A stretch of DNA of 64,000 nt from an uncultured Muribaculaceae bacterium (GTDB taxonomy: Bacteria > Bacteroidota > Bacteroidia > Bacteroidales > Muribaculaceae), in assembly GCA_947381945.1 (NCBI GenBank), contig CANCXM010000017.1, positions 1-64,000 on the forward strand. Reading direction: 5' to 3'. Of the stretch, positions 48,451 through 51,695 are shown piece after piece. A program made the position numbers and the translations under genes. Numbering within the stretch: position 1 is the first letter of the stretch; the number at the start of each line of letters is the position of its first letter. The notes below the pieces were generated by a model. The model was not told the origin of the DNA and searched no databases. It was given only the letters and a program-made list of their open reading frames with translations.

Positions 48451-49305
48451 ATGCTTAAAGTCGAAAACCTTACTTTTTCCTACCGGCGCAAGGCCCGTCC
48501 GGTGCTCAGCGACTTCTCTCTTGAGGTCGAGGCGGGAGGCGTCTACGGACTTCTCGGTCGCAACGGAGCCGGAAAGTCGACCTTGCTCTATCTGATTGCA
48601 GGGGCACTTACCCCGAAGAGCGGACAGGTGCTGTTTCGCGATGTGAACACCCGTCGCCGTCTGCCGGAAACTCTCTCCGATATGTTTATTGTTCCTGAGG
48701 AATTCACTCTCCCGCGCATACCTCTTAAGGACTATCTGAAAGCCAATACAGCTTTCTATCCGCGCTTCTCGCATGAGGATCTGCGCCGTCATCTTGAAAT
48801 CTTCGATATGGACATGGACCTTAATCTCGGCGCGCTGTCGATGGGTCAGAAAAAGAAGGCCTTCATGAGCTTCGCTCTTGCCTGCAACACTTCGCTGCTT
48901 CTGATGGACGAGCCGACCAACGGTCTCGACATCCCCGGCAAAAGTGCTTTCCGCCGTTTCATCGCGCAGAACATGACAGATGAACGAGCCATCATCATAT
49001 CAACCCATCAGGTGCGCGACATCGACCGTCTGCTCGACCATGTCATCATCATGGATCATTCAAACGTGCTTCTCAACGAGAGGGTAGACCGCATCACCGA
49101 CCGGTTGAAGTTTTTTGTCACTGATTCGCGTGAGGTCATTGATTCGGCCCTCTACTCACAGCCCTCTCTCGAAGGCACTTCCGTCATTCTTCCCAACGAA
49201 GACGAGATGGAAACCGAACTCAATCTCGAAACACTCTTCGAGCTTTCAATGGCAAAACCGGCCGTAGTTAAGGATATGTTTAACCGAAATACCGATAAAC
49301 AATGA
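48451..49305 (+). CDS. ABC transporter ATP-binding protein (YtrB-like)
   Basis: 284-residue ATPase. Walker A GRNGAGKST (36-44), signature LSMGQKKKAF, Walker B LLLMDEPTNGLD and H-loop IISTHQVRD are all present. The C-terminal 80 residues form the regulatory tail seen in YtrB/YhcH-type exporters. It overlaps the permease by four bases (ATGA), so the two are translated together. Substrate unknown; relatives respond to cell-wall-active peptides in Firmicutes, which may not apply here. Confidence 0.92.
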   Translation: MLKVENLTFSYRRKARPVLSDFSLEVEAGGVYGLLGRNGAGKSTLLYLIAGALTPKSGQVLFRDVNTRRRLPETLSDMFIVPEEFTLPRIPLKDYLKANTAFYPRFSHEDLRRHLEIFDMDMDLNLGALSMGQKKKAFMSFALACNTSLLLMDEPTNGLDIPGKSAFRRFIAQNMTDERAIIISTHQVRDIDRLLDHVIIMDHSNVLLNERVDRITDRLKFFVTDSREVIDSALYSQPSLEGTSVILPNEDEMETELNLETLFELSMAKPAVVKDMFNRNTDKQ

Positions 49306-50120
49306 GCAATAATCAGACTTTCAGCCTCTCCCGTATGCTTCTTTTGTGTCGCCGTGATCTGAGTGAACGCTGGCGTCAGCACCTGGTATCCATCGGTACA
49401 CTTTTGGGAATACTGCTTGTGATAGCTGTCATGACAGCCTTTAATGTCAGCCGCTGGAACGACCCGGAGACATGCAGCCATTTAATGATTACGTATGAAC
49501 TGCCATTTTTTATTGTATCACTGTTCTTTTTCGGCTGTCTGATGGCTTCAACGGCTTTCAAATCTATGTCGACCCCGACAGGAGCGCTGTCAACCCTCAT
49601 GCTTCCCGCTTCGCAGTTCGAGAAGTTTCTTTACAGGTGGATTATATCCGTCCCGTTGGCTTTCCTGCTGTTTTTCGTATGCGCTGTGATAGCCGATTGG
49701 CTCCGTGTTCTCTTCGTTGATTTCTATATGGGAATTGAGGTGAGTACGATAGACTGGTGTAAGTTGATTTTCCATTCCGCGGACGCCGGCTTCAACACTG
49801 ATGCCGCTTCATGGATAGTCCTGCTTATCTTCTTCATGACGCAGTCATTCTTCCTTGTGGGTTCCGTCGTTTGGCGACGCTCGCATTTCGTCAAGACATT
49901 TTTCAGCATGTTTGTCATCACGCTCATCTACGGACGCGTGGCTGTATGGATCTATGATTTATTTCAAAAAGAGGATTTGTTTTACGGAGCGCCGCCTCTG
50001 CTTGATAATGACAAGACTGTTTTCTGGTCGGCCGCTATCCTTATGACTGTCATCTCGCTCTTCAACTATCTACTGACCTACCTTAGATTCCGCGAGTCGG
50101 AAATCATCAACCGATGGTAG
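49302..50120 (+). CDS. ABC transporter permease
   Basis: 272 residues with about six hydrophobic helices (for example GTLLGILLVIAVMTAFNV, FFIVSLFFFGCLMAST, WIISVPLAFLLFFVCAVI, FSMFVITLIYGRVAVWI). The opening NNQTFSLSRMLLLCRRDL and the TPTGALSTLMLPASQFEKFLYRW segment are typical of Bacteroidota ABC-2-type permeases. It is the second gene of the operon; the GntR gene begins 18 bases after its stop. Confidence 0.88.
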   Translation: MSNNQTFSLSRMLLLCRRDLSERWRQHLVSIGTLLGILLVIAVMTAFNVSRWNDPETCSHLMITYELPFFIVSLFFFGCLMASTAFKSMSTPTGALSTLMLPASQFEKFLYRWIISVPLAFLLFFVCAVIADWLRVLFVDFYMGIEVSTIDWCKLIFHSADAGFNTDAASWIVLLIFFMTQSFFLVGSVVWRRSHFVKTFFSMFVITLIYGRVAVWIYDLFQKEDLFYGAPPLLDNDKTVFWSAAILMTVISLFNYLLTYLRFRESEIINRW

Positions 50121-50138
50121 TTAACAGAAAGGATTACA

Positions 50139-50513
50139 ATGATATTCAAGGAAAACAACAAGGCCATCTATCTTCAGATAGCCGATAAGATTTGCGACGA
50201 CATCCTGACAGGCCATTTCATCGCAGGCGCACGCATCCCGTCGGTGCGAGAGTATGCCGCCTCGCTTGAGGTCAATGCCAACACGGTGATGCGCAGCTAT
50301 GAGTATCTCGAACGTCTCGGCGTGATTTTCAACCGCCGTGGAATCGGGTTCTTCATCGCCGACACGGCACGGGATGTGATAGTCAATGAACGCAAACAAA
50401 CTTTTCTCAACGGTGAAATGAAATATCTTTTCCATCAGCTGATGCTTCTCGGCATTTCGCCGGAAGAGGCAAAAACAATGTATGAAAACTATTTAAAAGA
50501 GAACAACAAATGA
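50139..50513 (+). CDS. GntR family repressor, YtrA subfamily
   Basis: 124 residues: a winged-helix GntR domain (1-75; IADKICDDILTGHFIAGARIPSVREYAASLEVNANTVMRSYEYLE) followed by a short helical tail of about 45 residues, the layout of the YtrA subfamily, which dimerises without a large ligand domain. It is the third gene of the operon and overlaps the next by four bases. The inverted repeat at 48424-48447 is its expected target, giving negative autoregulation of the whole operon. Confidence 0.92.
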   Translation: MIFKENNKAIYLQIADKICDDILTGHFIAGARIPSVREYAASLEVNANTVMRSYEYLERLGVIFNRRGIGFFIADTARDVIVNERKQTFLNGEMKYLFHQLMLLGISPEEAKTMYENYLKENNK

Positions 50514-51355
50514 AACGTACAACATATATGATGCTCGGGGCCTTCATCTGTGGTCTCCTATTGGTTTCGGCGTTCAGCCTTATCCTTCTCACCGGAGGAA
50601 GGGACCGAAAAGAGATGGACAAGGAACGCGAGTTTGGAGGAAGCAAAATTGAAATTCCCCTGCCCGAATCTTTCAGCAGCATTGCGTTTGAACTGGAGGA
50701 TGATGATTCCGGTTTCCGTATCGGAAACTTCAAGGGTATTGCCGTTGAGGTTTCGGACTCTGTAACCGCTCCTGTTCTTCGGGCCAATACGGCATGGCGC
50801 AAGATTCTCAATATCTCTACGACTGTTGACACGCTCAACGTCCGCATTAACTTAATGCAGCTCTACGATTCCATCAAGGCGAGCGGAAGCTTCATGGACA
50901 TACGCTATCTTGACAGTTCAGAATCATGGCCACTTACAGTTGTGGTTCCCCGCAGTATGACTTTGAAGAATATGAGCAATAGCTGGAACTCAATTCTGGT
51001 GAGAAACATGACTTGTGGAACGATGACAGCGCATGTGTATAAGAGATTGGTGCTGGATTCATGCCGCATCGACACTCTGCATAGCACCTCTCCCGGCATG
51101 AAAGAATTGAAATTGGAAACTTCGACTGTTAAACAAGCATCACTGGCTCAACCTTCCGGAGAACTGAGGGTAAAATGCGTTGACAGTTCAAGTTCAATCG
51201 GTAGGATTACCGTTGAAGGTGATAGAAAAAGCGATTCAAGTCTCCTCAACCTGACTTCGGCCAACTTCGGAGCGGTCAACTGGACTCCGCTTGATTCGAC
51301 TGCCAAGATGAATATCCGTGTTCACAAACCTGTTGAACTCGTTTCTGGAAAATAG
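50510..51355 (+). CDS. Membrane-anchored protein with putative adhesin-like beta domain
   Basis: 281 residues. One N-terminal transmembrane helix (about 6-30; YMMLGAFICGLLLVSAFSLILL), then RDRKEMDKE, then an extracytoplasmic beta-rich domain (about 45-270) with short repeated strands (RLVLDSCRIDTLHST, LRVKCVDSSSSIGRITVEGD) resembling DUF4097-type putative adhesin folds. It overlaps the GntR gene by four bases. Co-occurrence with the ABC transporter suggests an accessory or sensing role; none is demonstrated. Confidence 0.75.
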   Translation: MKRTTYMMLGAFICGLLLVSAFSLILLTGGRDRKEMDKEREFGGSKIEIPLPESFSSIAFELEDDDSGFRIGNFKGIAVEVSDSVTAPVLRANTAWRKILNISTTVDTLNVRINLMQLYDSIKASGSFMDIRYLDSSESWPLTVVVPRSMTLKNMSNSWNSILVRNMTCGTMTAHVYKRLVLDSCRIDTLHSTSPGMKELKLETSTVKQASLAQPSGELRVKCVDSSSSIGRITVEGDRKSDSSLLNLTSANFGAVNWTPLDSTAKMNIRVHKPVELVSGK

Positions 51356-51401
51356 TAAGTTTTTTTAAGAAAGATTGTTTTAGTATCCATGTAAGTTTCC
51401 A

Positions 51402-51516
51402 TAAATTTGTAACGCGGACTGATTTGAACATACAATGGGATTATATATAAACTGCGATAAAACTTTCATTCCCATAATCGGTTAAGCTTCCGATTACTTC
51501 AAATCAGTCCGCTTTT
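51402..51516 (+). ncRNA. Candidate 100-nt small RNA with three-way structure
   Basis: TAAATTTG (51402-51409) would start transcription near 51415, almost exactly at the first base of a closing stem: GCGGACTGATTTGAA (51414-51428) pairs perfectly with TTCAAATCAGTCCGC (51498-51512), followed by TTTTCTCTC. Inside, ATGGGA/TCCCAT (51435-51440, 51470-51475) and AATCGG/CCGATT (51476-51481, 51490-51495, 8-nt loop) can form two hairpins. A promoter at the 5' edge and U-rich 3' edge suggest a discrete RNA. A plain operon terminator is the alternative. It does not match 6S RNA in size or shape. Confidence 0.45.
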
Positions 51517-51530
51517 CTCTCTAAACAATT

Positions 51531-51649
51531 GCGGGAAGGGTACACAAAGACAGAAAGTCAGAGGGGACATAAGATAATTTTCAGCTATTTGTTTGACTGA
51601 AAAAATCTTATGTCCCTTCTTGCCTTATGTCTTTATGTACCTTTCCCGC
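51531..51649. repeat. Imperfect 45-bp inverted repeat related to 29319-29443
   Basis: The left arm 51531-51575 (GCGGGAAGGGTACACAAAG at its start) and right arm 51605-51649 match at 38 of 45 positions when one is reverse-complemented. The right arm is clearly homologous to the arms at 29319-29360/29402-29443 (shared GTACATAA, GACATAAGG and GACATAA blocks). Confidence 0.85.
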
Positions 51650-51695
51650 TTGTACCTTTCCCGCTTGTACCATTCCCGCTTGTGCCTTTCCTGCT
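51636..51695. repeat. Four tandem 15-bp units TGTACCTTTCCCGCT
   Basis: Units at 51636-51650 and 51651-51665 are identical; 51666-51680 and 51681-51695 differ at one and two positions. The array begins inside the right arm of the inverted repeat and stops eight bases before the U32 stop codon. Confidence 0.9.

Follow-up and report, generated by a model that had tools for sequence, protein, structure and literature searches.

A structured RNA at the 3' end of a Muribaculaceae ABC-transporter/GntR operon is probably a narrowly distributed antisense small RNA, with a complementary susC leader in a sister species

The operon and the structured element that follows it

The window, that is the whole 64,000-nt stretch of DNA analysed here, contains on its forward strand an operon for an ABC transporter and a short GntR regulator (Table 1). 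The regulator has 124 aa and matches PF00392, while the product of the last gene (281 aa) has no match in Pfam or NCBIfam. The last stop codon is followed, after an AT-rich gap of 58 nt, by a structured element, and the next gene downstream, which encodes a U32 peptidase, is convergent. A 15-bp closing stem, two inner hairpins, a U-run and the motif TAAATTTG had been described at this place in the original prediction, and all of them were found at the positions given there, with TTTTCTCTC as the U-run directly after the hairpins and closing stem. The minimum free energy of the element is -36.4 kcal/mol, compared with -15.3 +/- 2.9 kcal/mol for dinucleotide shuffles (z -7.24, with 0 of 200 shuffles as low), and a sequence search finds a single copy in the genome. 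A stem and a U-run after an operon are features of a terminator, yet the hairpin encloses about 70 nt, and a consensus terminator scan made no call. As had been stated before, the element belongs to no known RNA family: Rfam gave no match at or above the gathering threshold. At permissive thresholds Rfam returned nothing credible, the miRNA-like scores being located on a neighbouring palindromic repeat.

This repeat (51531-51649 or, taken more widely, 51531-51680) separates the element from the U32 peptidase gene and is unrelated to the small RNA (sRNA). It consists of an imperfect palindrome with 50-nt arms (82%) and, after it, tandem units of 15 bp, TTGTACCTTTCCCGC, and is the source of most BLAST matches of the intergenic region, with dozens of matches across the same genome and about 20 in the relative G002. 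The repeat is a dispersed REP-like or MITE-like family.

Table 1 Features of the operon and of the RNA element in the window, with the evidence for each.
Feature	Positions	Strand	Evidence
Host operon: ABC ATPase, permease-like protein, short GntR regulator, 281-aa protein	48451..51355	+	ORFs; Pfam PF00005 and PF00392; NCBIfam; same gene order in G007
TAAATTTG, candidate sigma-ABfr -7 box (TAnnTTTG)	51402..51409	+	Sequence, pattern scan; without conservation at the G007 homolog
Structured RNA, about 103 nt, candidate sRNA doubling as operon terminator	51414..51516	+	Fold z -7.2; G007 homolog with 7 compensatory pairs
Closing stem, 5' arm, perfect 15 bp with 51498-51512	51414..51428	+	Sequence, fold
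Hairpin A, ATGGGA/TCCCAT stem (51435-51440/51470-51475), open loop of 29 nt	51435..51475	+	Fold
Loop seed ATATATAAACTGCGATAAAACTTT, antisense to the G007 susC leader	51443..51466	+	24 contiguous complementary nt
Hairpin B, AATCGG/CCGATT (51476-51481/51490-51495)	51476..51495	+	Fold
Closing stem, 3' arm	51498..51512	+	Sequence, fold
U-rich end TTTTCTCT	51513..51520	+	Sequence; GTCCGCTTTT in G007 too

The motif TAAATTTG fits the -7 consensus of Bacteroides promoters, TAnnTTTG (PMC7366714). This pattern has 38 matches in the 64-kb window, compared with 23.7 expected by chance; a single match to so common a pattern, in the 58-nt AT-rich gap, is no more than modest evidence of a promoter. The sole TTG upstream, at 51375-51377, lies 24 nt from the -7 box, a poor spacing for a -33 element. 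In the related genome G007, where the gap between the stop codon and the stem is 31 nt, no TAnnTTTG match is found at the right place. Since the box is not conserved there, the earlier claim that the RNA has its own promoter is left without backing from the comparison. That the RNA derives from the 3'UTR, by processing of the operon transcript or by sharing its terminator, is no less likely than that it has a gene of its own.

A homolog with compensatory changes in the same genus

The element is concluded to define a new and narrowly distributed family of probable sRNAs. A stem-pattern search found the RNA in 2 of the 397 Muribaculaceae genomes, and by sequence search G007 alone among 27 genus genomes has it. 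A covariance model from homologous intergenic regions had been proposed as a check, and a model built from the window sequence alone recovers the G007 RNA (34 bits, E 3.5e-4 in that genome). The homolog sits at the orthologous locus, after the ABC, permease, GntR and last genes in the same order. In G007 an IS66 insertion (L200:4040-6560) separates the last gene from the end of gntR and thereby breaks up the operon ahead of the RNA. Identity between the two genomes reaches 96% for RuvB and 82% for the ABC ATPase and drops to 32% for the last operon gene, which indicates that, where sequence evolves fast, the two species have diverged well. Sampled other members of the genus have simpler, different hairpins at the orthologous place. 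An exact 18-mer search of 84,980 species genomes gave 10 matches in unrelated taxa, about the chance level, and none in Muribaculaceae, in a collection that seems not to contain G007. With one mismatch allowed, the loop core gave scattered single matches across the family, weakly above a reversed-pattern control.

The minimum-energy fold of the G007 homolog (z -6.1), computed independently, has the same three-helix layout. In a model-guided alignment, 21 of the 27 base pairs could be compared, belonging to the closing stem and hairpin A, and all 21 are kept: none is broken, 7 carry changes in both partners and 3 in one partner. The double changes affect 3 of the 15 pairs of the closing stem, in which 3 more are changed on one side, and 4 of the 6 pairs of the hairpin A stem. 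When the partners were slid by 1-3 columns as a control, pairing fell to 25-57%. Thus the compensatory base changes whose absence from homologs would have refuted the original prediction are present, as seven double changes, and the support they give is good, not overwhelming, since the alignment was fitted to the structure and the two genomes that carry the RNA allow one pairwise comparison. The sequence of hairpin B in G007 (GCCTGA/TCAGGC) is unrelated to that in the window, so that its conservation is limited to its presence. The loop core ATATATAAACTGCGATAAAAC (21 nt) is identical in the window and in G007; the stems and hairpin B diverge. The element is therefore a conserved non-coding structured RNA (z -7.2 and -6.1, seven compensatory changes, no pair broken). 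Regarding the original picture of a small RNA with a three-way fold, distinct from a plain terminator, the homolog speaks in its favour through the seven double changes, the absence of broken pairs among 21 and the invariant loop.

Complementarity between the loop and a susC leader

A functional clue absent from the earlier account comes from the leader of a susC gene. The loop of the G007 sRNA is a perfect 25-nt complement of this leader, from -38 to -14 relative to the ATG, for a chance expectation of about 1e-7 in that genome. Exact matches to the core occur at two loci in G007, the sRNA itself and its antisense site (C1:1203452-1203476); hence, in this genome, the RNA is complementary to an mRNA encoded elsewhere. 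The window loop has 24 contiguous nt complementary to the same G007 leader, within a 35-nt antisense match at 91% (E 1e-6). The duplex of the leader with the window loop is predicted at -39.5 kcal/mol (z about -12; shuffled leaders -12.3 +/- 2.3 kcal/mol) and with the G007 loop at -34.9 kcal/mol, 9.5 SD below shuffled leaders. In the predicted fold of the leader the target site is mostly unpaired (0.68).

The target ORF in G007 matches SusC/RagA (TIGR04056, N-terminal part) and PF13715, and ends after 135 codons. At this place (L093:3991-4600) the truncated SusC-type gene is followed by a 130-bp element with ends AATTACAACAGTTCGGTAA / TTTACCGAACTATTGTAATT, present in at least 15 copies in G007 and also found in G009. 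Given the cut at 135 codons and the dispersed repeat, this susC could be what is left of a gene, or could belong to a locus that switches.

A second relative, G016 (82% complete), has no copy of the sRNA, and the reading frame of its homologous susC runs on for 624 codons or more, until the stretch read ends. Its leader is kept beside the start codon and has diverged at exactly the seed site, the pattern expected, in this single case, if the sRNA holds the site in place. A covarying sRNA matching the diverged leader was sought in G016, and none was found.

In the window's own assembly, no complementary susC leader was found with an 18-mer allowing up to 3 mismatches, a wobble-aware 23-mer or a 14-mer core, all at chance or control level. 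The 30 best SusC loci, searched for a target by energy or by contiguous match, have at most 10 contiguous complementary nt and no convincing site. Several SusC matches of this assembly are located at contig ends. The target of the window species either lies beyond the assembly, has been lost, or is another gene. Two weak leads come from the same genome. One is TTATCGCAGT (10 nt), in the susC signal-peptide region of C9 (L139/L130). The other, on C39 (L002:1501-1580), is a 21-nt stretch, 59-79 nt ahead of a predicted 261-aa ORF, that matches the loop and hairpin of the sRNA in antisense at 90% (E 0.35).

Proposed role, alternatives and known systems

The conserved RNA is probably an antisense small RNA of narrow distribution, with a susC target identified by complementarity in the sister species only. 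We favour, with reasonable though limited confidence, a structured sRNA at the 3' end of the ABC-transporter/GntR operon whose loop pairs with a susC leader and blocks translation. The closing stem and U-run would end transcription and protect the RNA, which would accumulate as a stable species, and the three-way junction would display the 29-nt loop in single-stranded form. By analogy to the FopS sRNAs (PMC11697453), this loop would pair in trans with the 5' leader of the mRNA of a SusC-family outer-membrane porin, so close ahead of the start codon that translation could not be initiated. Pairing would thus most likely repress susC, and we infer that the window species has or had a target of the susC type. 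Made together with the ABC operon, the RNA would link the signal of the operon, which might be stress from antimicrobials or on the envelope, to a reduced output of porin. Against this reading stand the lack of a matching susC leader in the window's own assembly, the truncation of the G007 susC, the restriction of the RNA to two genomes and the IS66 insertion in the G007 operon.

The element might also be no more than an intrinsic terminator of the ABC operon, elaborate in form but ordinary in function and inactive in trans. Its short distance from the last stop codon in both genomes, its GC-rich stem ending in a U-run, and the simpler hairpins found there in other sampled genus members are all compatible with this, but a terminator has no need of an invariant 21-nt single-stranded loop, of an extra conserved inner hairpin or of a loop that is a 25-nt antisense copy of the leader of another gene; we hold this explanation to be distinctly improbable. 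It is unlikely, too, that the loop pairs with a non-susC partner in the window species and that the susC match is a peculiarity of G007, where the leader of a susC remnant could act as a sponge, or the sRNA could be an inverted copy of the leader whose target has since been lost. The lack of a susC target in the window's own assembly and the truncation of the G007 gene fit such a partner, as does the fact that, apart from susC, the window's own genome offers nothing better in antisense than the weak 21-nt site before the 261-aa ORF. Against it, the window loop matches the G007 leader past the core, partly better than the sRNA of G007 itself, which suggests that this leader was the ancestral partner.

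Transposon ends and recombination sites can also be perfect inverted repeats, and instead of an antisense RNA the shared sequence could in principle be such a mobile or recombination element, or else a protein- or DNA-binding motif. This is very improbable, for the shared 21-nt core is not palindromic, the compensatory changes point to RNA, and searches of phage, plasmid and viral collections, at the sensitivity of each, did not find the element. The end of a mobile element was rejected on the single copy per genome and on flanks with no target-site duplication.

Among known systems, FopS/GibS of Bacteroides thetaiotaomicron comes closest to the antisense sRNA that we favour. The FopS sRNAs, about 65-70 nt long and present in 14 copies, have a seed near the 5' end and canonical sigma-ABfr promoters, include one 3'UTR-derived member, and are shown to block the translation of susC mRNAs, by a proposed pairing near the start codon (PMC11697453). 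The window resembles them in its candidate box, which also fits the sigma-ABfr type, and in a predicted pairing near the susC start codon. However, its RNA is about 103-121 nt long with the 5' end sealed in a stem of at least 15 bp, it is single-copy where FopS is multicopy, and instead of a segment near the 5' end it uses as seed a long hairpin loop, for which one target match of 25 nt is known. With an architecture so different, the window RNA would work like FopS yet stand outside the FopS family. GibS is a trans-acting base-pairing sRNA of Bacteroides that acts on translation initiation regions (PMC7366714, PMC11697453). It differs from the window RNA by its two seeds R1/R2, another promoter type and non-susC targets. 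Among enterobacteria, CpxQ and MicL are 3'UTR-derived envelope-stress sRNAs that lower the synthesis of outer-membrane proteins. Like the window RNA as proposed, they originate where a transporter or stress operon ends, but they are Hfq-dependent and have short seeds.

Muribaculaceae are a dominant family of the mouse gut, and to our knowledge very little is known of their regulatory RNAs; among the papers listed by a literature search on the family together with small RNAs, none dealt with them. With a long guide displayed in a loop and a susC target that can be named, the present RNA lends itself to direct testing, and it suggests that control of susC by sRNAs extends, in Bacteroidales, past the FopS family. 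More tentatively, and with some doubt on our part, it could represent a new class of Muribaculaceae sRNA, a three-way-junction RNA on an ABC/GntR operon whose long guide loop co-evolves with one susC leader, wiring the response to envelope-active compounds to the post-transcriptional silencing of a particular glycan porin.

Other features of susC genes were observed in these genomes. In the window's own genome, three SusC genes (L125, L128 and L129, on C41 and C22) have an identical 5' end (ACTTAACTATTAGGTATGAAAAAGCTG...) and differing upstream regions, and two of them are in opposite orientation on one contig; they look like a recombining, phase-variable set. In G007 (L093:3740-3800) and G016 (L101), susC genes are preceded by a CTTTGCA box and, about 40 nt further upstream, by a run of eight G (GGGGGGGGTAATTT), which is possibly a slippage-prone promoter element.
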